Notes under the pieces: generated by a model
The model's input: only the letters and a program-made list of their open reading frames with translations
What the model was told of the DNA's origin: nothing
The model's database searches: none
Shown here: positions 5,191-22,188 of the stretch, piece after piece
Position numbering within the stretch: position 1 is the first letter of the stretch
Layout: every line of letters starts with the position of its first letter
Made by a program: the position numbers and the translations under genes
Source: Tannerellaceae bacterium
GTDB taxonomy: Bacteria > Bacteroidota > Bacteroidia > Bacteroidales > Tannerellaceae
NCBI GenBank assembly: GCA_031288515.1
Contig: JAITRG010000011.1
Coordinates: 1-48,703 of the forward strand
Direction of reading: 5' to 3'
DNA: 48,703 nt

Positions 5191-7266
5191 TCAATCGTTT
5201 TTAAGATAGTTATCAAACCATTTCGTTATCTCGTCAAGGCGTTTGATACGGTTGACGGGTTTGCCCGAACGCGAGAGTTCGTGGTTTTCGCCTTCGAAAA
5301 TCACAATCCTGGATGGCACTTCAAAATATTGCAGCGCATAATACATTTGCAACCCTTCGACAAGCCAGCAGCGGTAATCTTTTTCGCTGTGGATGAAAAG
5401 TGTCGGCGTTTTCACCCTGTCGGCGTATTTCAGCGGCGACCTGTCCCACAGCAGGTCGTGATTTTTCCATAAATCAGTTCCGAAATAGGTATATGTGAAC
5501 GTATGTCCTATATCGCTTGTATTGCTGAACGTCAGCCACGACGAAGCGCTTCGCTGTGAAACGGCGGCCTTGAAACGGTCGGTATGCCCGATAATCCAGT
5601 TTGTCATCACGCCTCCGTAAGAACCTCCCGTAACTCCCAGGCGATTTTCGTCAATAAATCCCGACTGTTCAATTGCCGCATCGACAAAACTCATAAGATC
5701 GTTGTAGTCGACAGTCCCGATTTTCCCGCGTATATCCGCGAAATCATTACCCCGCCCGTTGCTGCCTGTCGGATTGGTGAACAAAACGGCATAACCTTGA
5801 CTGGCCCAATATTGCATCTCGTGGAAAAATACCGTGCCATAAGTGGATTTCGGGCCGCCGTGGATATCGAAAATTGCAGGATATTTCTTCCCCTTTTCAT
5901 AATCGGCAGGAGGCAGAACGTATCCGTTCAGTGTCCGTCCTTCCTCATTTGTGAAAGTTACCTCAAGCGGTTTCGCTATTTTATGCTCGTCAAACAACGG
6001 TTTGTTGATTGAAGTCAACTGCGTGAGAATGCCTTTTTTGTCGAGAAAATAAACCTCGCCGCCACGCTGCTCGACAAGCGCCGTAAGCAGGAAACCATCT
6101 TTGTATGGCAGAAACTCCGACACGGCTATCTGTCCTTTGGTCAGGACATTTACTTTTGCATCCCGGAATGCCAGATGTATCAGGTGGGCCTGGTCAACGA
6201 TCGTAGACACATAGAACAATCCGTCCTTATCGTGATGGAATCCCGACCTGCCTCCGGAGCCAATGTCGGTACCGACGCCACCCTGACTGTAGTACGAGCC
6301 GTCGTAAATCTCCGTGGCCTTACCGGTTTTCAGATTCAGTCGGTAAATTCCTGAATTTAAGTTCTTGTCTCGCTCAATACTGTGATTGATTGTCAGAACG
6401 ACCTCGTCGTTGTCAATAAAATAGAATCCTCCATAAGATACTTTGTCGAACAGCGGCAGTTCTTTCTTTGTCAGCGTTGCCACATCAAGCACGAACAGTT
6501 TGTTTCCAATATTCGGCGCTTTACCGTACCGGGCGTCCTGCCTGACGAAAATCAGCGTTTTCCTGTCGGGCGAAAGTTCAGCCTGCGACACGGATTCGAG
6601 CGTATCATTCAGCAGTGTGCGTTCTCCCTTGTTATAAAAATAAAGATGAGACCGCTGGCCGCTGACGTCGCCACGACCGTTCGACCAGAATGGCAACTCG
6701 TCGAAAATCCTGTAATTGCGATTCTCGTCCCGCTTTTTCAGGGCTTCCTGCCGATTACCGCCTGATTCGTTCAGAAACTGCTGAAAATGCTGGCTGTACG
6801 ATGCGGTATAGAAAAACCTGTCTTTGTCAATCCATTGAACCTGACCTGCCGAAAAAGGCAGGCGCAGCCATTCTGCAGCTTCCCCGTAGCCAGGGGCAAG
6901 CCTCTGAAATACGGTCAGTTCTTCGCCTTTGCGCACCTTTTCATGGTCTTTCTCATCCCTTACCGCGCGGAATATGATACCTGTTCCGCCTTCTTCAAAG
7001 AAGTAGTCCGACACATTCTGCGATATTTTCACGGCTTGACCGTCAATCAACTGATACAGGTTTCGCGTGTAAGCGTTTTCCTCTTTGCCGGGCTGGCTGA
7101 TCACAAAAAATATGTTCCCGTCTTTTTCTTTCAGGTTGGAAATACTTTTGACTTTGGTAAAAAAGTCAATTCCAACAGGTTTTTTTGCGCCTGGTTCCTG
7201 CCCTGCGGCGAAAGTTACGGACAGGATTAATAACGATATTACAATAAATAAATAGTTTTTTCTCAT
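5191..7266 (-). CDS. S9 family (prolyl oligopeptidase/DPP-like) serine peptidase, secreted
   Basis: Signal peptide; GVTGGSYGGVMTNWI nucleophile motif; HGGPKSTYG; terminal EGENHELSRSG. Confidence 0.9.
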   Translation of the reverse strand: MRKNYLFIVISLLILSVTFAAGQEPGAKKPVGIDFFTKVKSISNLKEKDGNIFFVISQPGKEENAYTRNLYQLIDGQAVKISQNVSDYFFEEGGTGIIFRAVRDEKDHEKVRKGEELTVFQRLAPGYGEAAEWLRLPFSAGQVQWIDKDRFFYTASYSQHFQQFLNESGGNRQEALKKRDENRNYRIFDELPFWSNGRGDVSGQRSHLYFYNKGERTLLNDTLESVSQAELSPDRKTLIFVRQDARYGKAPNIGNKLFVLDVATLTKKELPLFDKVSYGGFYFIDNDEVVLTINHSIERDKNLNSGIYRLNLKTGKATEIYDGSYYSQGGVGTDIGSGGRSGFHHDKDGLFYVSTIVDQAHLIHLAFRDAKVNVLTKGQIAVSEFLPYKDGFLLTALVEQRGGEVYFLDKKGILTQLTSINKPLFDEHKIAKPLEVTFTNEEGRTLNGYVLPPADYEKGKKYPAIFDIHGGPKSTYGTVFFHEMQYWASQGYAVLFTNPTGSNGRGNDFADIRGKIGTVDYNDLMSFVDAAIEQSGFIDENRLGVTGGSYGGVMTNWIIGHTDRFKAAVSQRSASSWLTFSNTSDIGHTFTYTYFGTDLWKNHDLLWDRSPLKYADRVKTPTLFIHSEKDYRCWLVEGLQMYYALQYFEVPSRIVIFEGENHELSRSGKPVNRIKRLDEITKWFDNYLKND

Positions 7267-7267
7267 T

Positions 7268-7450
7268 GCTGTTATAATTTAATTTGATGGATTAGAGGTC
7301 AGAGACGGATCTTTTGCAATCTCGTCAAGCTGTTATAATTTAATTTGATGGATTAGGGGTCAGAGACGGATACTTTGCAATCTCGTCAAGCTGTTATAAT
7401 TTAATTTGATGGATTAGGAGTCAGAGACGGATCTTTTGCAATCTCGTCAA
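7268..7450. repeat. three 61-bp tandem copies spanning the susD 3' end and its intergenic spacer
   Basis: Units at 7268, 7329 and 7390: gctgttataatttaatttgatggattag..gtcagagacggat..tttgcaatctcgtcaa. Confidence 0.95.
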
Positions 7451-8807
7451 TCGGTATGGGGAAGAGATATCCTTCCGTTTCGCCGAGAACAGTTGCGAGG
7501 CGGCCGGTACGGCGCAGGTCGAAGAATCGGTGATTCTCTACTGCAAACTCCAGCCTGCGTTCGTTTTCGATTGCCTGCAGGGCTTTCGCCCGGGCGTCGT
7601 ATTCGGAAGTTTCAATATCAGGCACGCCGGCGCGGCTGCGTACAGCGTTTATATCTGCGCGGCTTTCTTCGATTTTGTCAAGATGGGCGCGGGCTTCGGC
7701 GCGAATGAGATATTGCTCGGCGATGCGAAACAGATAGGCGGGGTTGTTCTGTCCCGACCGCCAGTACATTCCGTTGTAAATCTGTTTACTCTTTTCGGCG
7801 ACCGTAATAATATCTGCACGATTTCCGCCAATGGCCGGGTCTTCGAGCAGTTCGAGGATTGCCTCGTTCAACGTTATTTCATACCGTCCGCCAAGCTCCG
7901 AAGGCCTCCACCAGTGACCTGCAGGATTTGTCTGCGTTGCCGTAAAATTCAATTCAAAGATTGATTCAGTCGAAGCTTCCGTCGTGTAAAACACGGAATA
8001 CGGTTTTACCAGGCTGTATTTGCTGTTGGAAATAAGTAAGGACGAGTATGTTTCGGCTTTGTCCCACTGTTCGCGATAAAGCGCTATACGGGCAGTCAGA
8101 GCCTGAACGGCTCCCAAATCAATATATATGCGCGAATCGGTTGGCCGAAGCAGTTCTTCCGCTTTTTTGAGGTCGCTTTCTATCTGTTTATAGGTATCTT
8201 CGAGCGAGCTGCGCCGAATATCCGAAACATCATCAGGGCTTGCCGTCGGCTTTGTAACGATCTGAACTCCGCCCCAGAAACGCGTCAGGTCGAAGTACGA
8301 CAGCGCACGGATAAAACAGGCCTGTCCGAGGATGGCATTGCGTTCGTCCTGAGTAAAATTATCGTCTGTCACGCCGTCGACTTTTTCTATTATATGATTT
8401 GTCATGTTGACGGTACGGTAGATGGCCGTCCATGTTCCGCTCAACGAACTGTTGTCGGACTGCAGCGTTGTGGGGCCGTAGCCGTTCAAACGCACAAAAG
8501 CCTTATAGTATGTCTGGATACCGACAAATTTAACATTGTCGGCAAAAAGGTAGGGCACAATGTCGAAACCCAATCCGTAATAACCACTCGACATCAACTG
8601 ATTGTACGCTCCGTTAAGAGCGGCGCCAGCGCTTTTTTCGTCATAAATGGATTTGCTGTCGCTGATGCTTGCCGTAGGTTCGGGCGTCAGCAGGCCGTCG
8701 CACGACAAGCATAATATTGCCGTAACAAAACATAATATCCGGTTGACAGTCATTTGTTTCATATCCGTTTGTTTCATATCCGTTTGTATCATATCCGTTT
8801 GTATCAT
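7401..8807 (-). CDS. SusD/RagB family nutrient-binding outer membrane lipoprotein
   Basis: Lipobox CLSCDG, GSYNQLM-like start, FYLIRAEARAHL / ERRLEFAVENHRFFDLRR C-terminal SusD motifs. Confidence 0.92.
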   Translation of the reverse strand: MIQTDMIQTDMKQTDMKQMTVNRILCFVTAILCLSCDGLLTPEPTASISDSKSIYDEKSAGAALNGAYNQLMSSGYYGLGFDIVPYLFADNVKFVGIQTYYKAFVRLNGYGPTTLQSDNSSLSGTWTAIYRTVNMTNHIIEKVDGVTDDNFTQDERNAILGQACFIRALSYFDLTRFWGGVQIVTKPTASPDDVSDIRRSSLEDTYKQIESDLKKAEELLRPTDSRIYIDLGAVQALTARIALYREQWDKAETYSSLLISNSKYSLVKPYSVFYTTEASTESIFELNFTATQTNPAGHWWRPSELGGRYEITLNEAILELLEDPAIGGNRADIITVAEKSKQIYNGMYWRSGQNNPAYLFRIAEQYLIRAEARAHLDKIEESRADINAVRSRAGVPDIETSEYDARAKALQAIENERRLEFAVENHRFFDLRRTGRLATVLGETEGYLFPIPIDEIAKDPSLTPNPSN

Positions 8808-8820
8808 ATCCGTTTGTATT
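8761..8820. repeat. four 15-bp tandem units encoding M(I/K)QTD at the SusD N-terminus
   Basis: atatccgtttgtttc / atatccgtttgtatc x2 / atatccgtttgtatt. Confidence 0.95.
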
Positions 8821-8824
8821 TGAG

Positions 8825-11797
8825 CTAAAATGTAAGATTAAGTCCGAAAACGGCCGTGCGCGGCGAAGGCGAAGTGGCAAAATCTATCCCGAGTACCTGT
8901 TCGCTGTTGCCTGCAACGTTTATTTCGGGGTCTGTCCCCGAGTATCTGGTAAGTATCAACAGATTGGTTCCTGTCACATAAATCCTTGCCGCCGTAATCC
9001 CGGCCGGACGCAAGAGGCTTTTCGGAAGATTGTAGCCTACCGATACCGAACGAAGTTTGATGTTCGAGCCGTCTTCCATGAAACGGCTGTTGCGCAGCGA
9101 ATAGTTATTGCCTTTTACCGTCAGGCGCGGCACGTCCGTTTCGTCGCCGGGTTTCTGCCAGCGTTTCAACTGCTCTGCCGTGTAGCCCCAGGTGGGACGG
9201 GTACCGCCGTGTTGCAGCATGTATTGAAACATGTAGAGGACGTCGTTGCCGTATGAATACGAAAAGAATATATCGACGTCGAAATTCCCTGCTTTCACCG
9301 TATTGCCAAGCCCGCCGCTGAATAACGGAAGCGCATTGCCGATATGCTCGCGGTCGTCGGCCGTGATTTTTCCGTCTCCGGTGTAATCGTCGATTATAAG
9401 GTCGCCTGTCTGTTTATCCACTCCAAGCGACTTGTATGCAAAGAACGAAAACATTGGATAGCCTTCTTCGATACGAATCCAGCTGTACTGGTCGATGGGC
9501 GAATCAAGTTTCTCTACTTTATTTGAATTGTGGGCGATATTGAACGACGTGGTCCATTCAAATTTCCTTTTCCTGATATTCGTGGCCGTTACTGCAAATT
9601 CAACGCCTTTGTTGCTTATCTCGCCCGCATTTTTTGTAATGCTCGAAAACCCTGAAATGGCGGCAATCGGCAAGCTTACAAGTAAATCGCGCGTGTATTT
9701 GTTATACAGGTTAAACTCAAGCTGCAGGCGGTCGTTGAAAAACAGTCCGTCTATGCCGAAGTTTGCCTGCGCTGTCGTTTCCCATTTCAGCTCCGGATTG
9801 GCTAACTGCAACGACGTCAGACCCGATTGCCCGTTGTAGTTTGCTCCGCCCGACCATAGCCCGTAGGACGAATAGTTGCCGATTCCGTTCTGGTTGCCGG
9901 TGATTCCGTAGCTTGCTCTCAACTTCAGGTCATTGACCCATTTGGCAGTGAACCATGATTCTTTCCGGACGTTCCATGCAAGACCGACCGAGGGGAACGT
10001 ACCCCATTTTTTATTGGCGCCGAACTTGGAAGATGCATCGGCGCGGATATTGAAGTCGGCCATATATTTGCCGTCAAAGTCGTATGCCGCCCGTCCGAAG
10101 AACGAGAGTAATCCGTTTTGCGAACTGCTGCCCGCAACCGACGATGGCGTTGCAGCCGACGAAATTTCGCGAAAGTCGTCGCTCGGAAATCCGTATGCCG
10201 TGATCGAGCGCGACGAACTGGTATTTTTCTGTACCGTATTTCCCAGTAAAAACGACAGGTTGTGGACGTCGCGCAGCGCAACGCCGTAGCGGAGCGTCTG
10301 TTCGTTAATCAGGGTCTGGCGTTTCGTACGCGCCGAAGTAGTCAATCCGCCCCTTGCCGCCCCCGTAGTCGTAACGCCGGGATAATAAATGTCTTCGTCG
10401 AACGTATTGTAATCGATATTCCAGTTCGAACGTAAGGCCAGGTTATCGATTATTGTCCATTCCGCAAAGAGCGCGCCGATCAGCCGGTTGCTGGCAGAAG
10501 TGTTGTCGAGGTCGTTAATCATTGCCAGGTAGCTGTCGTGGATAGCCCACGAAACGTAACTGCCGTCAGGATAGCGCGAGGGTATATTGGCGGGAGGGTA
10601 GATGGCAGAGGGAACGGGCGCCGCCGTGTTGTTGCCGTTCAGCGAAATCCGCCGGTCGACCCTGGATAAGCCGGTATTCGTTCCGACTTTCAGTTTTGCG
10701 GAGATTCGGTGGTCGAGATTGACTCTGAGGCTGTATCTCTTCAGGTCGTCGGGCTTTTGCGTCCCCACTTCCTGATTGAAATCCACCCCGAGATAATAGC
10801 GCGTCTTCGTATCGCCGCCCGTCACATTCACATAATGGTTTTGCTGCAGCCCCGTTCTGAAAATCGCATTCAGTTTTTCCTCAAGATAACTCGGTTCGGC
10901 GGCAGGATCGGGATAGGGTATTTTAGCCGGGTCGCCGCCGTCGTTCAGGAATACTTCGTTTGTAAGTTCGGCATACTGCGGGCCGTCGACCATGCGCCAA
11001 AGTTTTCTGACTTTGGAGACTCCAAGCGAAGCGCCCACGGAAACGCTTGTCCTGGTATTCAGCTTGCCCTGTTTTGTAGTGATGATAATGACGCCGTTAG
11101 CGCCACGGGCGCCGTAGATAGACGTCGCATTGGCATCTTTCAGCACTTCGATGCTCTCGACGTCATTGGGATTGAGGTCGGCAAGCGAATTGACGACCTG
11201 GCCGCCGTTGTCTATGCGCTGAAGGGCTTCGTTGTTGACGAACACGCCATCGACAACGTATAGCGGGCTGTTGCCGGCGTTAATAGACATTGTTCCCCGG
11301 ATATGCAGCGAGACGCTCGTGCCCGGGGCGCCCGAGTTGCTGGAAACTGTCATGCCGGGAACCTTGCCCTGCAGTTTCTGGTCGAGGCTGCTGCCGTGAA
11401 CGTCTTCTATTTCGCTTCCTTTCACATTGGATACGGAAGCGGTCACTACGCCGCGTCTTTGCTGTATATAGCCGGTGACGATCAGCTCGTCGAGCAGATT
11501 CACTTTCTCGTCGAGCGTGATTACGATGGTTTCCGAGACGTCGTAGACTTCTATTTCCTGGCGTGCGTATCCAATGTAATTTACTTCGACTGTCGCCGGC
11601 AGCGATGCGACTGTCAGCGAGAAACTCCCGTCGACGCCGGTTACGACGCCGGATTTCCCGTTTATCAGCGAAACGGTGGCTCCGATAACCGGTTCCCGCG
11701 TCTGGCGGTCAATCGCTTTCCCCTCAATTTTAAGTTCCTGTCCCCAGACAGATACCGGGACAAGCATTAGTATAAGTAATCGTTTTATTAATTTCAT
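8825..11797 (-). CDS. SusC/RagA family TonB-linked outer membrane protein
   Basis: CarboxypepD_reg N-domain (GATVSLINGKSGVVTGVDGSFSL), plug motif SPLYVVDGV, NDVESIEVLKDANATSIYGARGANGVIIITTK; start chosen at MKLIKRLLILML. Confidence 0.93.
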   Translation of the reverse strand: MKLIKRLLILMLVPVSVWGQELKIEGKAIDRQTREPVIGATVSLINGKSGVVTGVDGSFSLTVASLPATVEVNYIGYARQEIEVYDVSETIVITLDEKVNLLDELIVTGYIQQRRGVVTASVSNVKGSEIEDVHGSSLDQKLQGKVPGMTVSSNSGAPGTSVSLHIRGTMSINAGNSPLYVVDGVFVNNEALQRIDNGGQVVNSLADLNPNDVESIEVLKDANATSIYGARGANGVIIITTKQGKLNTRTSVSVGASLGVSKVRKLWRMVDGPQYAELTNEVFLNDGGDPAKIPYPDPAAEPSYLEEKLNAIFRTGLQQNHYVNVTGGDTKTRYYLGVDFNQEVGTQKPDDLKRYSLRVNLDHRISAKLKVGTNTGLSRVDRRISLNGNNTAAPVPSAIYPPANIPSRYPDGSYVSWAIHDSYLAMINDLDNTSASNRLIGALFAEWTIIDNLALRSNWNIDYNTFDEDIYYPGVTTTGAARGGLTTSARTKRQTLINEQTLRYGVALRDVHNLSFLLGNTVQKNTSSSRSITAYGFPSDDFREISSAATPSSVAGSSSQNGLLSFFGRAAYDFDGKYMADFNIRADASSKFGANKKWGTFPSVGLAWNVRKESWFTAKWVNDLKLRASYGITGNQNGIGNYSSYGLWSGGANYNGQSGLTSLQLANPELKWETTAQANFGIDGLFFNDRLQLEFNLYNKYTRDLLVSLPIAAISGFSSITKNAGEISNKGVEFAVTATNIRKRKFEWTTSFNIAHNSNKVEKLDSPIDQYSWIRIEEGYPMFSFFAYKSLGVDKQTGDLIIDDYTGDGKITADDREHIGNALPLFSGGLGNTVKAGNFDVDIFFSYSYGNDVLYMFQYMLQHGGTRPTWGYTAEQLKRWQKPGDETDVPRLTVKGNNYSLRNSRFMEDGSNIKLRSVSVGYNLPKSLLRPAGITAARIYVTGTNLLILTRYSGTDPEINVAGNSEQVLGIDFATSPSPRTAVFGLNLTF

Positions 11798-11944
11798 ATT
11801 CTGCGTTTTTGTGATGATTGATTGAAAACAGTATCGATAAACGTATGCTGTCCGGAAAGATGTTTTCCGGAAGGATACGATTTTTATCCCGTCGGGCAAG
11901 GCCTGAAAACAGCCGTCCCGTCAACTGGCGGAAGTAAATATAAC

Positions 11945-11960
11945 GTGCTCGCGCGAGCAC
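11945..11960. promoter_or_regulatory. 16-bp perfect palindrome GTGCTCGCGCGAGCAC upstream of susC
   Basis: Perfect dyad read directly; about 150 bp upstream of the likely susC start. Confidence 0.4.
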
Positions 11961-12105
11961 ATTCGGCAGGAACGGCAGTTCATACAATAAACGACGTCTT
12001 CTGCCTGGCAGCAGAGAATTGCCGAAAAAATATATCTGTACGAATGAGACGCCATTAATTTTCTTTTTTTTAATTCCAGCGGTAAAGGTAGGGGCGCTTT
12101 TTAGT

Positions 12106-12143
12106 GTACGCAATACCATTTTTATGGTAATTATACTGCGTAC
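12106..12143. promoter_or_regulatory. nested inverted repeat GTACGCA-n-TACCAT-tttt-ATGGTA-n-TGCGTAC
   Basis: Outer arms 12106-12112/12137-12143, inner arms 12114-12119/12124-12129. Confidence 0.45.
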
Positions 12144-12281
12144 GGGACCGTTTTGCGGCGGCAAATCCAGCAGGCCCGGACGACGAAGCGATACCGCAAC
12201 ATCCCGGCGCAGCGGGCCAAAAGCAATGAACCCGGCGCAGCGGAATCCTGATTGCCGGAGGAGATAAAACGAAGACGGGCG

Positions 12282-12580
12282 GCCTTTTTACGCCAGTAAA
12301 TTGGGCGCCCTGAACTGTGCGCGGCTATTTGCTCCGGGATTTTGGTTCCCCTGAACTGTGCGCAGCCTTTTTACACCAGTAAATTGGGCGCCCTGAACTG
12401 TGCGCAGCCTTTCTACACTAGTAAATTGGTTCCCCCGAATTGTGCGCGGCTATTTCTACACTAGTAAATTGGTTCCCCTGAATTGTGCGCGGCTATTTCT
12501 ACACTAGTAATTTTGGTTCCCTGAATTGTGCGAGGCTATTTGCTCCGGGATTTTGGGCGTCCGGAATTGTGCGCGGCTTC
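12282..12580. repeat. array of seven 41-43 bp degenerate tandem units (core YTGAAYTGTGCGCRGC)
   Basis: Core starts at about 12311, 12352, 12394, 12436, 12479, 12522, 12563. Confidence 0.9.
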
Positions 12581-12686
12581 AACCTGCAAGGTACAAAACC
12601 ATCCTGCGTGCGGTACGGTCTGTGCTTTGTCAGGTTTTTTCAGGACACGGCGGTTCCGAATTATTTTGATGCGGGGTCTCTGATGG

Positions 12687-12741
12687 CAGCCAACTATCCG
12701 TTTAAATAATTAATTTTGCGTTCGTAGTATTCTTATTTATT
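12687..12741 (+). repeat. 55-bp direct repeat, copy B, directly upstream of nikR (contains TAATTTTG -7-like box)
   Basis: 54/55 identical to 4965-5019. Confidence 0.9.
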
Positions 12742-12745
12742 TGTT

Positions 12746-13147
12746 ATGGCTTTAAAACGATTCGGAGTATCCCTTGAGGATAAACTGCTTGAAGAACTTG
12801 ATACGTATGCAAACGAGAATGGTTTTGCCAACCGTTCGCAGGCAATCGGGTTCCTGATCAAGAAATATGTTACGGAACAGAAATGGCAATGCAACCATAT
12901 CGTGAGCGGGACAATCATTATCATGTATCGCCGGGATAAAAAGGAAATTATATCCAGAATAGCCTCTGTCCAGCTTAGCTATACGGACGTAATCCTTTCT
13001 TCATCCCAGTATTATATTAATGACAATATTTGCATGCACATCGTAACGGTAATGGGGGAAGCGCGCCGCCTTACCGAGTTGTCCGGCCAGCTCACAACTA
13101 TAAAAGGTATCAGGCATGGGAAATTAGCCATGAGCAGGGCCGACTGA
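12746..13147 (+). CDS. nikR: NikR-family ribbon-helix-helix/ACT-like regulator with altered metal site
   Basis: RFGVSLEDKLLEELDTYANENGFANRSQAI RHH domain; C-terminal GIRHGKL; gapless alignment by eye to the NikR metal-binding region. Confidence 0.85.
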   Translation: MALKRFGVSLEDKLLEELDTYANENGFANRSQAIGFLIKKYVTEQKWQCNHIVSGTIIIMYRRDKKEIISRIASVQLSYTDVILSSSQYYINDNICMHIVTVMGEARRLTELSGQLTTIKGIRHGKLAMSRAD

Positions 13148-13157
13148 TTTTCTGTTT

Positions 13158-13766
13158 CTACCGGGGAAGCAGCGGGCGAATCTCTTTCTGAAATATTTCC
13201 CGCCCGATAATCCGGTAGTGAGGGTCGTATGCTTTGGAAAAGGGTTCGCTGTGATGCGCCACATAGTTGCCCTGTTCGAGCAGCGAAAATATCTTTGCCC
13301 GTTCCTGTTCGTAACCGGCAAGCGTCAGATTCATTGTGTGGATAACCGAGTCTATTTCCTGCCATTCCCTTTCCCATTCTTCAAGCGTGATGATTTGTAT
13401 ATTGCTTACGCTTCGTAAAAAAGCGTCGAAAAAGGCGTCGCGCGAAATAATCCCTTCTTTTATAAGGGACAGATTAACCCTGAAGAAGTTTCCGTTATAG
13501 CCGGCCGGTTCATAATACGGGCCGGCAGCCTGTTCGAACGAAGCAAGTTCCCTGTCTAAATAAGCGCCGGCAGACGCGGTATCGCCGACGATATGCCCCG
13601 GGCCGAAATAATCCTGGAAAAAATTCTTATAGATATCCTGCAACGCAGATTCCGGGTACAGGCTTAGCTGGCTTTTTACCGCCGCACGAATCCGTTCGCT
13701 TTTCGTATCCTTACAGGACGCCAGGGCCAGGGCCAAAACGATAAAAGGTATGAAATATCGTATCAT
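13158..13766 (-). CDS. conserved-looking lipoprotein of unknown function with nickel locus (GPGH, AHHS, DPHYRII motifs)
   Basis: Lipobox LALASC; 13777/13766 spacing suggests operon with the TonB receptor. Confidence 0.6.
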   Translation of the reverse strand: MIRYFIPFIVLALALASCKDTKSERIRAAVKSQLSLYPESALQDIYKNFFQDYFGPGHIVGDTASAGAYLDRELASFEQAAGPYYEPAGYNGNFFRVNLSLIKEGIISRDAFFDAFLRSVSNIQIITLEEWEREWQEIDSVIHTMNLTLAGYEQERAKIFSLLEQGNYVAHHSEPFSKAYDPHYRIIGREIFQKEIRPLLPR

Positions 13767-13776
13767 GACGTATTTT

Positions 13777-15669
13777 TTACAGATTTAGAGATATTCCTCC
13801 CATACAGGTAGCTCCGGGCATCGGGTAGCCGGCCATTGTCTCGTATTTTTTTCCTGACAGATTATCTCCCTTCACGAAAACTTCCATCCATTTCAGCGGG
13901 CGATAAGCTGCCCGTGCGTTTATTAATGTATAGCTTGCCGTTTGGGGGTTATCTCCGGCGACGAGGCAGAGCTTGCCTGTCGCCTGCACTCCGGCGCTCA
14001 GGGCGAATTTACCGGGGTGGTAAGCCATTCCGGCATAAAGTTTATTTCCGGGTGCGCCGGTAACCGGTTTTTCCATATCCAGGTAGCTATAGTTGGCATT
14101 CAGGCTGAGGTTATCCAGTATCAGGCAGTTGAGGCTAAATTCGATTCCCTTACTGGAAAATTTCCCCGTATTCCTGTTTTGCATACGGCTTTCGCCCACT
14201 GAAACAACTTCTATCATATTATCTCCCCTGATATAATATAAGGTCAGTTCCATCGACGCCCGGTTGTCCGGCAGTCCCTGCAATACGGTGAAGTCGTAGC
14301 TGAGGCTGCGTTCGGGCAGCAACTCTTCGTTGGCAGGAGCATACATGTATAATTCGCGCATATTGGGGGTGCGGAAACCCTTAGACAGTGAAAACTTCAG
14401 GCTTGTCTGTCCGGCCGCCCTGAACGAAACGCCTGCCTGCGGCGTCCATTCGGCGCCATACAGATTATGATTCTCCAAACGCAGCCCCGCTTCCAGCATG
14501 AAGTTCCGGATTTGCTGCTGGGCAAGGATATATCCCGCCACTTCATTCAGTTTGATATGGTCGGCATATATTTCGTTCACCGGGTCGCGACGGGCATTCC
14601 CGCCGTACAGTTTCGCGTCAAATCCTCCCGTAACTGTGTTGCCCCGGAACAGATTCGCCGCCTGGTATATATTTACGCCGCCCATATAGTCTGTCGATTC
14701 GAAAAGATATGGGCGGGGAGTTCCTCCTTCAAAATAACCGTCATTGATTTTATGGTCTCCCCAGTTATAGTAAAAATTCACGGCTCCCCGCGTTTTACCG
14801 TACTTGTTTTCTAACGAAAGCCCGGCCATGCCACGCAATACGTCGGTTGTTCCTTCCAGTAAGGGACGGCTTTCCTGTCCGGGTACCTGCGCTTTGGCTT
14901 TTACGATGTTTATATTCCCGGAGGCATTCCAGTTTTCAGACAAATCATAACCTGATTTTACAAATCCTGTCCATGAGTCAAAATCGGAATTGGGGCGATG
15001 CCCGTCCGTCCGTTCATAATTACTGCTGGCAATGGCCGAAAACCGTCCGGCGCGGTAGGTATCCGTTACCGTGTATCGTCGCGTGCCGTACGAACCGCCC
15101 ATCAATCTTGCCGACAAGCTGTTTCCCTCTTCGGTAGCCTGCCGGGTGATAATGTTAATGGCTCCGCCCATCGCATTGGAACCGTAGAGTATAGACGCCG
15201 CGCCGCGCGACACTTCCACGCGCTGCGCATCCGACGCGATATAGGCGTCGGCCACAGGATGCCCGTAAATAGTAGCATATTGCGGATGCCCGTCTATAAG
15301 AATAAGCAACTGTCCGGCTCCGCCCGAAAAGCCGCGCATGCTGATACCTCCTGCCGCGCCTCCCGAAACGCCGTAGCCGGCCATCCCGCGGGAGGTAACG
15401 AATAATCCCGGAACCTGTTGCATGAGCGCCGGAAGCAGCGCCGTCTCCCCGCTCTGTTCAATTACGCTGCGGGATACCACGGTAACCGGAGCAGGTATTA
15501 CGTCGCGTGGAACAGGTATCCGCGTACCCGTTACTACCACTTCACGCAGGTTGACAGCCTGATTCCTTACCGTATCCGGCGATACAGCGCGGCTGCCCTG
15601 CGCCAGGCTGACTGTTGAATACAAACAGGCTGATACTGCCAACAGTATTCCTTTCTTCATCTTTCTCAT
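13777..15669 (-). CDS. TonB-dependent outer membrane receptor, putatively nickel/metallophore
   Basis: Signal peptide, plug domain EVVVTGTRIPVPRDVIPAPVTVVSR, SRGAASILYGSNAMGGAINIITR, barrel; substrate inferred from neighbours. Confidence 0.88.
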   Translation of the reverse strand: MRKMKKGILLAVSACLYSTVSLAQGSRAVSPDTVRNQAVNLREVVVTGTRIPVPRDVIPAPVTVVSRSVIEQSGETALLPALMQQVPGLFVTSRGMAGYGVSGGAAGGISMRGFSGGAGQLLILIDGHPQYATIYGHPVADAYIASDAQRVEVSRGAASILYGSNAMGGAINIITRQATEEGNSLSARLMGGSYGTRRYTVTDTYRAGRFSAIASSNYERTDGHRPNSDFDSWTGFVKSGYDLSENWNASGNINIVKAKAQVPGQESRPLLEGTTDVLRGMAGLSLENKYGKTRGAVNFYYNWGDHKINDGYFEGGTPRPYLFESTDYMGGVNIYQAANLFRGNTVTGGFDAKLYGGNARRDPVNEIYADHIKLNEVAGYILAQQQIRNFMLEAGLRLENHNLYGAEWTPQAGVSFRAAGQTSLKFSLSKGFRTPNMRELYMYAPANEELLPERSLSYDFTVLQGLPDNRASMELTLYYIRGDNMIEVVSVGESRMQNRNTGKFSSKGIEFSLNCLILDNLSLNANYSYLDMEKPVTGAPGNKLYAGMAYHPGKFALSAGVQATGKLCLVAGDNPQTASYTLINARAAYRPLKWMEVFVKGDNLSGKKYETMAGYPMPGATCMGGISLNL

Positions 15670-15717
15670 TTTATACTAGTCGTTACTTTACCATTTATGT
15701 TATGTCAGTCGTTACTT

Positions 15718-16371
15718 TTACCATCCCAGGAATAGCATACCTCCGGCGCTGACAAGTATAATCAGGCCCGCCAGCAAGTGTACGTATCGCTCCCTGTTTC
15801 GTATTTTTATCAAAGAAAAACCTTTATGTCCCAGAAAAACCATGACCAGCATCGTCCCTATCGTCGCGATGGCAAATACCAGCGCTATCAGGAATATGGA
15901 AAACATATTGCGTTCGGAAGCAGGGTAAAGCAATAAGGGGATAAGCGCTTCGCAAGGGCCGAAAAAGAAGATCAGGAAAACAATCCAGGGCGTAGCGCGA
16001 AACGCTTTGGCTTCTTCTTCTGCGACGGGCAAATGAGAGTGGCGGGAATGCCGTACATATTTATATATACCATAGACTGTATAGCCTGCCCCAAAAAGGA
16101 ATAATGCCCACGAAACGACGCCTCCCCGCCAGGATTCGACAGATTCGAGCTTGTTCAGTCCGACTCCCAGTCCGATCCCGATCATCCCTATCAGGACGGA
16201 ACTCGCCACATGTGCGATACCTGAAATAAAGGTGATCCACATCGTTTTGGCCGTCGTCCAGCCCTGCGCCTTACTTAATACGATAAACGGCAGGTAGTGG
16301 TCAGGCCCTAATAACGTATGGATAAACCCTAAGGAAACCGCCGTAGCTAAAAGAATTGTCAGTTCATTCAT
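15718..16371 (-). CDS. UreH/TauE-SafE-like nickel permease candidate
   Basis: 6-7 TM protein with HTLLGPDHYLPF motif and FGPCEALIP; between TonB receptor and larB. Confidence 0.75.
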   Translation of the reverse strand: MNELTILLATAVSLGFIHTLLGPDHYLPFIVLSKAQGWTTAKTMWITFISGIAHVASSVLIGMIGIGLGVGLNKLESVESWRGGVVSWALFLFGAGYTVYGIYKYVRHSRHSHLPVAEEEAKAFRATPWIVFLIFFFGPCEALIPLLLYPASERNMFSIFLIALVFAIATIGTMLVMVFLGHKGFSLIKIRNRERYVHLLAGLIILVSAGGMLFLGW

Positions 16372-16376
16372 TTTTT

Positions 16377-17045
16377 TTATAATTTATTTATGAGAGACGC
16401 CTGGCAGGCCGCCCCGAATCCGTTATCTATATTTACGACACTCACGCCGCTGGCGCAACTGTTCAGCATGGAAAGCAGCGCCGCGACGCCTCCGAGGTTT
16501 GCCCCGTAGCCAACGCTTGTCGGCACGCCGATAACCGGCTTGTCTACCAGTCCTCCTACAACGCTTGCCAAAGCTCCTTCCATTCCGGCAATAACGATCA
16601 CTACCCGGGCTTGCCTTATTATATCGAGCTTATTAAAAAGCCGATGCAAACCGGCTACTCCCACATCGTACACCCGTTCTACCTTATTCCCGAGGAAAGC
16701 GGCTGTGAGCGCAGCCTCTTCGGCTACCGGCAAGTCGGAGGTTCCTGCCGCTACTACGGCAATGTAGCCTTTTTCATTCATCTCCCGGCTTCTTCTCCAT
16801 AGCAAGACGCGCGCCAGTGCGTGGTATTCGGCTCCGGGCGCTATTTTCATGACGGCCTGCGCCGTATCTGCATCCACACGGGTTATCAATATATCGGCTT
16901 CTTTCTCATATAAACGGGCGGCAATCCGGCAAATCTGATCCGGCGTTTTTCCTTCTCCGTAGATTACTTCCGGGATACCTGTCCGTTTCAGCCTGTCCAT
17001 GTCTAACATGGCAAAGCCCATATCTTCAATCATTTTGTTTTCCAT
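16377..17045 (-). CDS. larB: nickel pincer cofactor biosynthesis protein LarB
   Basis: PurE-like C-domain: [48 protein letters not shown]. Confidence 0.93.
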
Positions 17046-18216
17046 ACTGTATGACGGATTTTTCTATTTCGGATAGCGATACCTGATGCTGTTCGGCCAG
17101 GCGGCGGCAGTCATCCGACTCCGGCTTGGCGTTAACCAGTGTTCCTTTATAATACGATTGTTTTACCCGTACGTTCCCGTAGGGAGTTTCCACACGCCGT
17201 TCTTCCCGCCTCAATACATCTCTGGACAAGGTTTGGCAGCGAATACCGATAGAGGTACTGTGGGTGAACAGAATCTCTTTCATCACCTCTCTGGCCGATG
17301 GTTTGCAAAGGACGGAAAGCTGTATGGCAGGACGTGATTTTTTCATGATAACAGGCGTCATCCAGGCGTCGCTGGCTCCGGCTTTCAGTAATTGTTCCAG
17401 CAGGAAGTCATAATGCTCCGGGTTCATATCGTCTATATTACATTCCAGCAAGGCAACTTCTTCGGTTGTCACATCCGGCGTTTCTTCGCCGCTTTCGCCG
17501 TCTTCGCAAAGGAATACCCGCAGTATATTCGGAATCTCCTTATCGATGGTTCCGAGCCCGCAGCCCGTACGGATGATGCGGAAACGGCAGGCGTCGGTAA
17601 ATTCGTTTACCGTTGCGGCAAGAATAGCAGCCCCTGTGGGCGTTGTCGCTTCGTAAGCTACAAGCCCTACTTTCACCGGTATGTTTTTTACAATCTCCGC
17701 TGTGGCGGGAGCCGGCACAGGCATGACGCCATGCGCGCATTTAACCGTTCCGCTTCCCAGTTGAACAGGCGACGACATCACTTTATCTACGTTCAGGCAA
17801 GTAAGGCAAATGGCTGCCCCTACGATATCGACTATCGAATCCAGTGCGCCGACTTCATGGAAATGCACTTTTTCTTTCGGGCAGTTATGCACTTTCGCTT
17901 CGGCTTCCGCTACCCGGCTGAATATCTTCAGGGCAAGTTCCTTTACAGGTTCCTGCAGCGTACTGTTACAAATGATTTCTTCTATATGCTGCCAATGGCG
18001 GTGTTTTTCTTTTTTTGGATTTTTGATGGCGACGTCTGCTTTCGTTCCATAGATGTTCTTCCGGTGGTCTCTTTTTACCGAAAGCCGGAAACCGTCTATC
18101 CCAAGCTTTTCCAGTTCGGCAGACAGATAGCCTGCATCTACTCCGAGGTCGATCAACGCCCCAAGATTCATATCGCCGCTGATTCCGGCAAAGCAATCGT
18201 AATACAGTATTCTCAT
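17026..18216 (-). CDS. larC: nickel pincer cofactor biosynthesis protein LarC (single full-length ORF)
   Basis: [57 protein letters not shown]; overlaps larB by 20 bp and larE by 4 bp. Confidence 0.95.
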
Positions 18217-19052
18217 GGCGCAGTTTTTAAGGGATTTGTAATGGTTCTGTTCAGTTTTCCGGAAACCAAGCCTTCGGGATCAATCCATACCTGCTCAAAT
18301 CCGACAGCCTTTATTTGTCCGGCAACCGTATCCGATATAGCGTGTAAACGGGGAAGTTCGTCCGCCGGAACCTCTATCCGTGCCGAAGCGCCGTAATGCC
18401 TTACCCGTACATCTTTAAAACCAAGCGTATTCAAAATATCTTCCGCCCGTTCTATCTGCGCCAGTTTTTCAGCCGTGATAACCTGATGGTAAGGAATGCG
18501 GGAACTCAGGCATGGGCTTGCCGGCTTGTTCCAATTGGGCAATCCGAAATACCGGGCAAGCAGGCGGATATCCTCTTTCGTTACGTTACAGTCAACCAGG
18601 GGCGACTGTACCCGGTAGTTAGCTGCGGCCTGTAATCCGGGGCGGTAATCGCCCAGGTCGTCATAATTCGTGCCGTTCAGCACATCGAACAAAGGATATT
18701 TCTCTTTAACAGACTGTAATTCCCGGTAAAGATGTTGTTTGCAGAAGAAGCAGCGGTTTTGAGGATTTCGATTGTACTGCTCATCATTTATCTCCCTTGT
18801 TTTTATTACTTCAAGAGAAATATCAAATTGCCTGCAGAACTCTTCCGCCTGCTCAAAGTCCTTCGCTTTTAAACTTTCCGAATGGGATATGACCCCGACA
18901 GCATTGCTTTTCCCCTGTATCTTTCCGGCTAAAAACAAAACGAAAGCGGAATCGATTCCTCCGGAAAAAGCGACAATGGAACCTTTTCGTTTCCCGAACC
19001 AATCTTCCAGGCAGGATAGTTTGTCTTGAAGTATGGATGTTAGATTATCCAT
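18213..19052 (-). CDS. larE: ATP-dependent sacrificial sulfur transferase LarE
   Basis: PP-loop VAFSGGIDSAFVL; NRCFFCKQHLY; NKPASPCLSSRIPY. Confidence 0.93.
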   Translation of the reverse strand: MDNLTSILQDKLSCLEDWFGKRKGSIVAFSGGIDSAFVLFLAGKIQGKSNAVGVISHSESLKAKDFEQAEEFCRQFDISLEVIKTREINDEQYNRNPQNRCFFCKQHLYRELQSVKEKYPLFDVLNGTNYDDLGDYRPGLQAAANYRVQSPLVDCNVTKEDIRLLARYFGLPNWNKPASPCLSSRIPYHQVITAEKLAQIERAEDILNTLGFKDVRVRHYGASARIEVPADELPRLHAISDTVAGQIKAVGFEQVWIDPEGLVSGKLNRTITNPLKTAP

Positions 19053-19078
19053 TTATATTGTTATTTTATAATGATTAG

Positions 19079-19104
19079 TGACACGTGTTCTCGAAAACAT
19101 GTCA
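19079..19104. promoter_or_regulatory. imperfect 11-4-11 palindrome upstream of larE (candidate operator)
   Basis: TGACACGTGTT-CTCG-AAAACATGTCA, 9 of 11 positions symmetric. Confidence 0.45.
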
Positions 19105-19243
19105 TAAAAGTAAGACATAATTAAATACCATACGAATAATCAGGCAATAAAAAACGAAAAAATATCAACTAAAAGCGAATAGCGTCTCTATCATGGCGCC
19201 CGGAACACCTAAAAATCATTATCTTTGGCGGAAAAATAAAATT

Positions 19244-19552
19244 ATGACGTCAATTCATTTGGATGGTTTACTGATTGGAGTTATTACTTTTTTCATTATA
19301 GGGTTGTTCCACCCCATTGTTGTTAAAGCGGAATATTATTGGGGAACTAAGTGTTGGTGGGTTTTTCTGGTGTGCGGTATTTCAGGTATCATTACTTCTT
19401 TATTTACTGAAAATGTATTGCTATCGGCTATTTGCGGGGTGTTCGCCTTTTCGTCTTTCTGGTCGATAAAAGAAGTGTTCGAACAGGAAGGGCGCGTATT
19501 GAAAGGTTGGTTTCCCAAAAATCCGAAAAGAAATTATCCCGGACATACGTAA
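19244..19552 (+). CDS. DUF4491 family membrane protein
   Basis: HLDGLLIGVITFFIIGLFHPIVVKAEYYWGTKCWWVF...GWFPKNPKR. Confidence 0.8.
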   Translation: MTSIHLDGLLIGVITFFIIGLFHPIVVKAEYYWGTKCWWVFLVCGISGIITSLFTENVLLSAICGVFAFSSFWSIKEVFEQEGRVLKGWFPKNPKRNYPGHT

Positions 19553-19575
19553 TTGTATATTTACCGCCCGAAAAC

Positions 19576-19608
19576 AAAGAAGGCAGATCGTTTGAATCTG
19601 CCTTCTTT
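19576..19608. terminator. bidirectional intrinsic terminator between convergent genes
   Basis: 13-bp perfect stem AAAGAAGGCAGAT/ATCTGCCTTCTTT, T-rich flank. Confidence 0.8.
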
Positions 19609-19631
19609 ATTTTTAGTTGTTCCCTCTCAGT

Positions 19632-21065
19632 TTACTCATCATATACGCTTGTAATCACCTGTACCTGCATCTTTGACGAGTCTGTACGAAGGGTAAGGCT
19701 TGCCGGCTTCAGGTAGTTGCTTATCGATTCCGTCGTCACGGTATTAGTACTTACCGACATAGTCGTTCTGCTAACAGGGATAACCAGCATATTCAAATCC
19801 TTATCCGGCGCATACAGTAACTGATACTTTATCAGATTGGCCAGATTTGTTTTAGCAGTAACGCTCGCAACGCTAGTGGAAGTACTCGTAAGAGGAGTAA
19901 AAAAGTATAGTAAGGAAGCTGAATTATAGGTTCCTAAATAGGTAGTTATATTATCTTCCGCTTTCCCTTTTTCAAAGAATGTTTTAACGGAATCTTCCGG
20001 GATTAACAATACATTTCCGGGAGGCGACAAGGCATACTTCCAATTATCCTGCGGCATCGCTTTCAGTTCGAAATAAAAGGTATTTACCCGCCGGCCTTCT
20101 ACCTTTTCCTTTATTTCTTTAATCGGTATCGTTAAACGTGTGGCAACGCCGGCCGGAGACTTTATATACGTATACCGGTCATTGGGAGTCAATAATTTAT
20201 CCAAACCGGCATTTTTCATACGGTTCATTTGAATCACTTCCTTCGTTACAGGAAACATCTCATAAGCAATGACGGCAGAATCTATGGCTCCGGTAGAAGC
20301 CCTTTCCGCATAATAATTATAATAAATAACGATCCGCGTATCACTAACAGATAAAATATTCCCGCTCCCGAATGTATTGGTAATATATAATCCGGGGAAG
20401 AACTTATTGAAAGCCTCCTGACTGGCAAAATAACCCGGATTATTAATCGATTCATCATAGAACTTTTGTCCGAATGAAACGGGTAGCTTTATCTTAATAT
20501 GCGCATCATAAGTATACACTGTATAACTGCCACTCGTGGTTACGGCATTCCATAACGAATCGGAAACAGTCTGGTCACGGGGAGAATATGTTTTGGAAGC
20601 CAATGGATTATTAAAATCCACATATTGCGCTGGGTCAATATTCGTATAATAATTTCTTTCCAGCGGTTTTACAACAGGATACACGGTTGCCTGCATCGAA
20701 GCTAAAGAGTCGCCAATCCAGTCTCTGTTGGGATAAAAGATCATGAACTGAACCGAGTCGATCTTGCCGTTTACCGGTTCGTGCCTGAATGTAAAGCCAT
20801 CCTGTACATAGAACTGGCAGATAAAATCCGCTTTCAGATCGCCGAATAACGGATCATATATCTCTCCCAGTAAGCCGGTGGTCGTTTTGGCATATACCGA
20901 ATCAAGCAATACCGTAGACGCTTTGAGCATAAACGTATCGGCTTTTAACGTAGGCGTATCCTCATCCGGCTGAATACTTGGCCCTACCAATCCAAAATCA
21001 TCATTACAACCGTTCAGGAATATACTCCCTGCAACAATCCCAAGTATAAAAAGTTTGATTTTCAT
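19632..21065 (-). CDS. DUF4270 family lipoprotein
   Basis: Lipobox FLNGCNDDF, VGPSIQP; typical Bacteroidales neighbour of the GT5 gene. Confidence 0.8.
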   Translation of the reverse strand: MKIKLFILGIVAGSIFLNGCNDDFGLVGPSIQPDEDTPTLKADTFMLKASTVLLDSVYAKTTTGLLGEIYDPLFGDLKADFICQFYVQDGFTFRHEPVNGKIDSVQFMIFYPNRDWIGDSLASMQATVYPVVKPLERNYYTNIDPAQYVDFNNPLASKTYSPRDQTVSDSLWNAVTTSGSYTVYTYDAHIKIKLPVSFGQKFYDESINNPGYFASQEAFNKFFPGLYITNTFGSGNILSVSDTRIVIYYNYYAERASTGAIDSAVIAYEMFPVTKEVIQMNRMKNAGLDKLLTPNDRYTYIKSPAGVATRLTIPIKEIKEKVEGRRVNTFYFELKAMPQDNWKYALSPPGNVLLIPEDSVKTFFEKGKAEDNITTYLGTYNSASLLYFFTPLTSTSTSVASVTAKTNLANLIKYQLLYAPDKDLNMLVIPVSRTTMSVSTNTVTTESISNYLKPASLTLRTDSSKMQVQVITSVYDE

Positions 21066-21080
21066 TTTTTATTGTATTTC

Positions 21081-21899
21081 TTATTTAGAATCCAATACTA
21101 TATCGTAAAACTTATTAAAAGAGTCTATATAATCATCCGGAGATTGATAAGGCAGGAAGGGCTTCCCGTTTATGCCTGAAATATAAGAAGTTATTTCCGG
21201 GTTAACGCTTTCGCTTCCCTGTATAACGCCATCCGCGAAATCAATCGCCAATTTCGTCAGGGAAACAAAACCCGTATCATTCTTTAATAGCGCCACATCC
21301 TCGTCGGTAGCTCCGTCCATTTTCAGTTTGCCGGCAAAATCTTTCCGCAGAGGCGTGTTAAATCCATCATCATACACAGAATAAACAATCTTTGCACTCT
21401 TCAAACAAGGATCGTCGACATACATACGTTTGATATAAAGGGCCGTTAAAGCCGACATCCATCCATGGCAATGAATCAGATCCGGCATCCAGCGAAGTTT
21501 TTTAATCGTCTCCAGCACTCCGCGTACATAAAAAATAGAACGTTCATCATTATCTTCATATTCCTTTCCCCCTGCATCGCATACAAGAGATTTTCGCTGA
21601 AAAAAATCTTCATTATCAATAAAATACACCTGCATTCTGGCAGATTGTATAGAAGCGACTTTTATTATCAGTGGATGATCCGTATCGTCGATAATCAAAT
21701 TCATTCCAGACAAACGAATCACCTCGTGTAACTGGTTGCGCCTCTCGTTAATGTTTCCAAATTTAGGCATGAATGTCCTGATTTCACGTCCACACTCCTG
21801 TGTACCTTGAGGCAAATTCCTGCCTATTATAGCTATTTCTGATTCCGGTAGATAAGGGGTTATTTCTTGAGTGATAAACAAAATTCTTTTTGCATCCAT
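21081..21899 (-). CDS. glycogen/starch synthase GT5 catalytic-domain protein (N-terminal domain only)
   Basis: FITQEITPYLPESEIA, DLIHCHGWMSALTALYIKRMY; about 270 aa, no C-terminal GT1 domain. Confidence 0.78.
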   Translation of the reverse strand: MDAKRILFITQEITPYLPESEIAIIGRNLPQGTQECGREIRTFMPKFGNINERRNQLHEVIRLSGMNLIIDDTDHPLIIKVASIQSARMQVYFIDNEDFFQRKSLVCDAGGKEYEDNDERSIFYVRGVLETIKKLRWMPDLIHCHGWMSALTALYIKRMYVDDPCLKSAKIVYSVYDDGFNTPLRKDFAGKLKMDGATDEDVALLKNDTGFVSLTKLAIDFADGVIQGSESVNPEITSYISGINGKPFLPYQSPDDYIDSFNKFYDIVLDSK

Positions 21900-22188
21900 T
21901 CTAATAAAATTATTTTAAGATGGTGCAAAGATAACACTTTTTTAAGGGAAAACCGTTATAAAAATTCAAAATAAGCCCTAACACAGTATTATTCAGTCTT
22001 TCTTCCTTATTTCCATCTCCCTGTTCCTATCTCTTTATTCCTTCCATATGAAAAAGTAACGGCGCCTTCATATGAAATTATTGTTTGTCCTGCGTTAACG
22101 CATTAATTCTTTCTCATCAAAAGCGTAAAGCCTCCATCCCCCTTATTCAGGCCCATGTTATTACCCCATTACACAAGCTTGTCTGGCG

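Follow-up and report, generated by a model that had tools for sequence, protein, structure and literature searches.

The window, i.e. the entire 48.7 kb stretch of Tannerellaceae DNA analysed here, carries a gene for a NikR-like RHH repressor, the only one found by a homologue search of the whole genome (G000). The opposite strand carries a putative target operon composed of larE, larC and larB and the genes for a membrane protein, a TonB-dependent receptor and a small protein (Table 1). The membrane protein is a probable nickel permease, and its homologues are found beside canonical nikR genes at L179, L181, L188, L191, L194, L196, L203, L205 and L212. The small protein is conserved and accompanies the receptor in several related genomes (also at L063, L083, L085 and L350), while the closest solved relatives of the receptor by sequence are BtuB-type proteins, at only 75 bits. 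An imperfect 43 bp tandem repeat (5.8 copies, 84 bp higher unit, positions 12286–12578) lies just upstream of nikR, and a palindrome at positions 12106–12143 lies upstream of a susC-like gene. A scan of positions 7000–22000 against Rfam found no known RNA element.

Table 1. The nikR-like gene of the window, its putative target operon and the associated sequence elements
Feature	Position	Strand	Basis or remark
nikR-like gene (RHH repressor, nickel site lost)	12746–13147	+	Intact ORF, ATG start, 133 amino acids
DNA-contact strand R5-F6-G7-V8-S9 (E. coli R3/T5/T7)	12758–12772	+	R-G-S shared with canonical Bacteroidales NikRs
C49-N50-H51, possible alternative ligands	12890–12898	+	C 33/33, H 30/33 in the non-redundant QYCH set
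Former nickel site, residues 77–98: His replaced by L77, Q88 and Y90, C96 retained, H98 gained	12974–13039	+	Alignments to solved NikRs and to relatives
Small protein of no known family, encoded at the end of the operon	13158–13766	−	No family match
TonB-dependent receptor, conserved genomic partner of the regulator	13777–15669	−	Profile match and locus comparison
Multi-pass membrane protein, HTLLGPDH motif	15718–16371	−	No family above cut-off
larB	16377–17045	−	NF033503, 310.5 bits (cut-off 175)
larC	17026–18216	−	TIGR00299, 219.8 bits (cut-off 90)
larE, heading the putative target operon	18213–19052	−	TIGR00268, 286.9 bits (cut-off 150)
Putative NikR box ATGACAT-N14-GTGTCAC (read on the − strand)	19078–19105	.	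Box-model match, sequence only
Bacteroidales-type −7 element TACTTTTA (TAnnTTTG-like)	19105–19112	−	Shares its final base with the start of the box
NikR box of L070, 28 bp			GTAACACGTTTTTTAATATACGTGTTAC

The protein had originally been predicted to be NikR-like and to align without gaps over the metal-binding region, which was confirmed by alignment to the solved NikRs from Pyrococcus horikoshii (2bj1, the closest solved relative; E = 7e-27) and Escherichia coli (1q5v; E = 1e-14). The alignment to PhNikR starts at residue 1 and is gapless across the metal site. The NikR_C domain (PF08753) is matched at 67.9 bits, against a cut-off of 22. The N-terminal RHH domain is also present: its RHH_5 score of 21 bits is slightly below the cut-off of 26, but the domain is supported by the PhNikR alignment, and in the relative L070 the RHH_1 profile is matched above its cut-off. 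The AF2 model of the monomer (pLDDT 88.5) has the NikR fold, with a metal domain that matches those of HpNikR and EcNikR (2y3y, 3pht and 1q5y) in Foldseek with an r.m.s.d. of 1.2–1.5 Å over about 81 residues. Like PhNikR, EcNikR and HpNikR (2bj1, 1q5v and 2ca9), the window protein combines the RHH and NikR_C domains and has the NRS-AI helix and the KG-RHGKL end; it differs from them in the replacement of three of the four nickel ligands, in the exchange of Glu97 for His and in the K+ site located between the domains, where Glu30 and Asp34 are replaced by Gln32 and Gly36. It also scores below the NCBIfam NikR equivalog cut-offs (NF003381, 99 against 105; NF002815, 73.2 against 83; TIGR02793, 58.1 against 175.45 bits). 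The K+ site does not divide the canonical NikRs from the class to which the window protein belongs, since Glu30 and Asp34 are each found in just 28 of the 91 canonical sequences.

In E. coli numbering, positions 76, 87, 89, 95 and 97 of the window protein are Leu, Gln, Tyr, Cys and His, and the Ni(II) ligand set His76′/His87/His89/Cys95, as confirmed for E. coli NikR in a review (PMC7055735), is therefore no longer present. The predicted replacement of the three histidines, with retention of the cysteine, is borne out by the ungapped alignment, and so is the new histidine two residues past the cysteine (CMH), which stands at the position of Glu97, a residue conserved in 90 of the 91 canonical sequences. 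True ligands shifted in the sequence and hidden by a gap are ruled out by the same ungapped alignment, and a sequencing or frame error as the cause of the lost histidines is ruled out by the fixation of this state throughout the clade and by the low dN/dS of the gene (about 0.06–0.10 against close relatives).

NikR-like proteins are present in 104 of 125 Tannerellaceae genomes, and the nearest relatives of the window genome are Tannerellaceae MAGs; homologues are also found in other Bacteroidales MAGs, many from the rumen and the horse gut. Those examined from Tannerellaceae and rumen Bacteroidales have a site of the QQYC-x-H type (hereafter QYCH). Among 185 distinct NikR-like sequences, drawn from a sample in which many genomes are incomplete MAGs and gene calls are simple ORFs, 91 are canonical (HHHC), 80 belong to the QYCH group and 14 have other lost or altered sites. 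Within the 80 sequences of the QYCH group, Cys95 and Tyr/Phe89 are invariant, Gln87 is found in 73 and His97 in 76, counts that are partly built in, as the group was chosen by Cys95, Tyr/Phe89 and His/Tyr/Gln97. An unbiased check is afforded by 33 non-redundant sequences of the clade, in which the residues corresponding to Cys96, His98, Tyr90 and Gln88 of the window protein are strongly conserved, and by the clade as recovered in the tree, where Cys95 is missing only from L089 and L224. Position 76 is mostly Gln but variable in this clade (Q, I, L, G, Y, K or T), so that no fixed residue has taken over from the old ligand of the neighbouring subunit. In the other lineages that have lost the site Cys95 is kept in just three of 14 sequences; it is usually lost together with the site, which makes the pairing of Cys95 with a new histidine two residues on specific to the QYCH clade. 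The sites of these other lineages are idiosyncratic (AQFL, SHFY, RRTS, LRTS, IRIH, TRL-, SGYY, AFRC, QHFT, EHYH and QRIV), and in the larE-linked NikR of L183 (G795) the Cys95 position is deleted outright.

Outside the QYCH group, Bacteroidales NikRs are mostly canonical, with a few further independent losses. In a tree built without the site columns (122 columns, with many unresolved forks), four changes between the HHHC and lost states are needed, of which at least two are forced by well supported branches. On the evidence of this tree, loss of the nickel site is an event that occurred more than once in the Bacteroidales. A single loss would account for the QYCH clade and probably for the lineages next to it. 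The site-lost L189, L192 and L195 are nested with canonical sequences in a starred group of the tree, L156 may represent a further separate loss and L122 (HHYC) appears to be an intermediate stage.

The DNA-binding side has been retained. A published NikR operator from delta-proteobacteria, GTGTTAC-N13/14-GTAACAC (Rodionov et al., 2004; PMC545781), was used to seed a two-half-site box model, for which training was confined to promoters of canonical (HHHC) nikR. The half-site obtained by fitting resembles GTGTCAC/GTGTTAC, and 46 of the 75 non-redundant training promoters exceed the 99% shuffle level. The best match to this model in the whole window is the box located 25 bp 5′ of the larE start codon, which coincides with the palindrome at 19079–19104 originally proposed as an operator. 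The palindrome at 12106–12143, proposed for the same role, is not among the 15 best box matches of the window, and neither are the 43 bp repeats; a second box, at 19058–19084, is probably non-functional, its far half-site being lost in L062. The larE box is conserved in the relatives L062 and L288, and in L061 both half-sites have changed together in a symmetric, compensatory manner (ATGACAT…GTGTCAC against GTAACAT…GTGTTAC in L061), next to a −7 element that reads TACTTTTG. A box abutting a −7 element is found in 13 of 25 canonical cases, against 0.9 expected by shuffling, and in one of 50 QYCH tonB boxes when searched with an expression that missed elements overlapping the box. The overlap of box and −7 element at larE suggests the geometry of a repressor.

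At most loci the regulator gene precedes, or diverges from, a gene of one TonB-receptor family, that of the window receptor. The same family is found beside canonical NikRs (L124, L126, L179, L181 and L205), which implies that the partnership probably predates the loss of the nickel site. Canonical Bacteroidales NikRs (L124, L126, L205 and L225) mostly share the DNA-contact triplet and the box with the QYCH proteins and often the adjoining TonB receptor or permease, but they keep HHHC and Glu97, and their box is usually 5′ of nikR (autoregulation) rather than of tonB. In canonical and QYCH sequences, respectively, Arg3 is found in 91 of 91 and 80 of 80, Gly5 in 83 of 91 and 80 of 80, and Ser7 in 90 of 91 and 80 of 80. 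A change in DNA specificity along with the sensor is ruled out, R-G-S and box being identical in both classes. The delta-proteobacterial regulon, which has the same operator as well as a reversed form, comprises nikMNQO-type transporters and a hydrogenase, and a lost nickel site is not mentioned in the portion of that paper drawn on here (PMC545781).

Beyond the QYCH clade, nikR genes with a lost site are also preceded by a box, with scores of 21.4 (L169 and L170), 20.7 (L151/L227) and between 10 and 16 (L197, L156, L189, L192 and L195). In the QYCH clade the box is directly 5′ of nikR in just two of 107 cases and lies instead about 22 bp past the nikR stop codon, 5′ of tonB. Indeed, at 50 of 56 QYCH loci, which average 16 kb, the best-scoring site is at the 5′ end of tonB, with about 0.02 expected per locus. 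A strict 28-mer search of the 125 Tannerellaceae genomes found matches in 47, mostly at nikR-tonB. Among the unlinked matches that were fetched, eight are again immediately 5′ of the same receptor family, in copies that retain the box just 5′ of the gene away from nikR (L331, L334 and L336–L341), and one, inside a SusD-like gene, is probably due to chance. Two further unlinked matches belong to box clusters that separate a different TonB receptor from genes of a binding-protein/ABC system, with five overlapping boxes in G005 (L332, 1919–2029) and four in G020 (L333, 2967–3075). This second receptor type with its binding-protein/ABC system is a candidate nickel-uptake system of the Tannerellaceae; the G005 cluster adjoins larEBC and a NicO-type permease.

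A site lost from a protein whose fold, DNA contacts, purifying selection and operators have all been kept requires either another effector or independence from metal, and to this extent the original suggestion of a different ligand or a metal-independent repressor stands: the three-histidine site is gone and the signs of a working regulator remain. Comparison of sequences shows the fold, the loss of the ligands, the constraint on the new residues, conserved operators and a state fixed across the clade. Very probably the protein continues to act as the repressor of a NikR-box regulon, consisting of the TonB receptor and, in the window, of larECB-permease-tonB. We favour, with even confidence, the view that it is a NikR variant in which the nickel sensor has been replaced by a remodelled Cys/His effector site while the DNA side was kept. 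The regulator, probably as the usual tetramer, would bind the box that overlaps a −7 element in front of the larE-larC-larB-permease-tonB operon or, in most relatives, the box just 5′ of the TonB-receptor gene, and would thereby block transcription. Binding to DNA would no longer require square-planar Ni(II); the remodelled pocket, formed by Cys96, His98 and Tyr90, possibly with Cys49/His51 or His124, would respond to another effector, most likely a different metal, a small molecule or a signal that reacts with thiols. Against this reading, Gln and Tyr are poor ligands for soft metals, Cys and His alone provide only two donors per subunit, the variable position 76 supplies no constant partner ligand, and many carriers lack the nickel enzymes considered below. 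A precedent for one regulator fold with varied sets of metal ligands is found in the CsoR/RcnR/InrS family (PMC7055735), the fold of which is unrelated to that of NikR. A literature search of partial coverage found no description of a NikR without the His site or of a NikR associated with the pincer nucleotide.

The main rival to a remodelled effector site, possible but tentative, is a metal-independent repressor with a degenerate sensor, acting constitutively on NikR boxes or controlled only by its own amount, which would result in fixed low expression of the receptor and Lar genes. The idiosyncratic sites of the other lost lineages are as would be seen under relaxed selection, with operators kept in most of them, and position 76 varies even within the QYCH clade. 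Relaxation does not, however, explain the conservation of Cys96, His98, Tyr90 and Gln88 in the 33 non-redundant QYCH sequences, and known NikRs depend on nickel for specific DNA binding.

It is also conceivable, although improbable, that nickel is still what the protein senses and that only the coordination has shifted, to Cys96, His98, Cys49, His51 and His124. The conservation of Cys and His at these positions is compatible with this, and the targets are still of nickel type (TonB receptor, permease and lar), including the tandem boxes of G005; InrS and RcnR, moreover, bind nickel through different ligands within one fold (PMC7055735). On the other hand, the conserved site that links the dimers (His76′ with His87, His89 and Cys95) is gone, and many carriers lack the nickel enzymes that were searched for, namely the three families LarC, NiFe-hydrogenase and urease. 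NiFe-hydrogenase is found in about 23 of 125 Tannerellaceae genomes and urease in four, and in 24 of the 41 near-complete (≥95%) regulator-bearing genomes of this family none of the three was found, so that any role connected with nickel is itself uncertain. Among genomes with canonical NikR, 45 of 57 have a hydrogenase match above the cut-off.

The original prediction also raised the nickel-pincer nucleotide cofactor (NPN) as a ligand. A sensor of NPN or of a precursor that shuts down the genes for lar and nickel uptake in response to plentiful cofactor is quite unlikely. It draws on the location of the best NikR box of the window, at larE, and on the NikRs found adjoining larE/B/C in Bacteroidales beyond the Tannerellaceae (L169, L170, L183, L189, L192 and L195), where the regulator directly precedes larE or a permease-lar operon: all six, like the window group, have lost the site, whereas canonical NikR and LarC were found on one contig in 0 of 26 genomes, although in a few of these they are close to the end of a contig. 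A naive test of lar adjacency against site loss, with 25 canonical genomes, gives p = 3e-7, but only two to three pairs are phylogenetically independent, too few for significance in a sign test. Arg recurs at position 87 in L183, L189, L192 and L195, yet the lar-linked variants have no site residues in common, which argues against a single NPN-binding pocket. Most site-lost NikRs adjoin just a TonB receptor. Within the Tannerellaceae, lar and the regulator are neighbours in just three genomes, that of the window and two very closely related ones (L061 and L062); the near-constant partner is the TonB receptor and not lar, and LarC is found in 23 of 125 genomes (49 of 393 across the order) against 104 of 125 for the regulator. 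This distribution rules out NPN as the ligand of the whole QYCH clade; as a general ligand of these regulators NPN appears unlikely, and such a role can hold at most for the lar-linked lineages. The broader proposal that Bacteroidales repeatedly turned the nickel site of NikR into a non-nickel pocket, with NPN or a precursor as the effector in lar-linked lineages, is likewise a long shot.

LarA (Lar_N, PF09861) was not detected in the window genome, which is 91% complete and contains larB, larC and larE, i.e. an NPN pathway without a detected known NPN enzyme; this also speaks against NPN sensing. In G008 a larECB-permease-tonB operon (L288) is unlinked to nikR (L342). Other lar arrangements in Bacteroidales (L260–L278) are free of NikR, with larC-larE-larB beside two conserved genes or lar with ECF-type transporter genes (L264, L275 and L278).

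NikR is the standard example of a nickel switch, and automated annotation commonly labels its homologues as nickel-responsive. In common gut bacteria, Parabacteroides and relatives, the sensor has been lost throughout a clade, and independently elsewhere, while the operator and the targets stay; a nikR annotation in QYCH genomes is thus no evidence of nickel sensing. If the NPN reading were true, lar-linked regulators would read the finished nickel cofactor and not the metal. The HHHC, HHYC, QQYC-x-H and other sites form a natural series of how a metalloregulator may be re-tuned or uncoupled from its metal.
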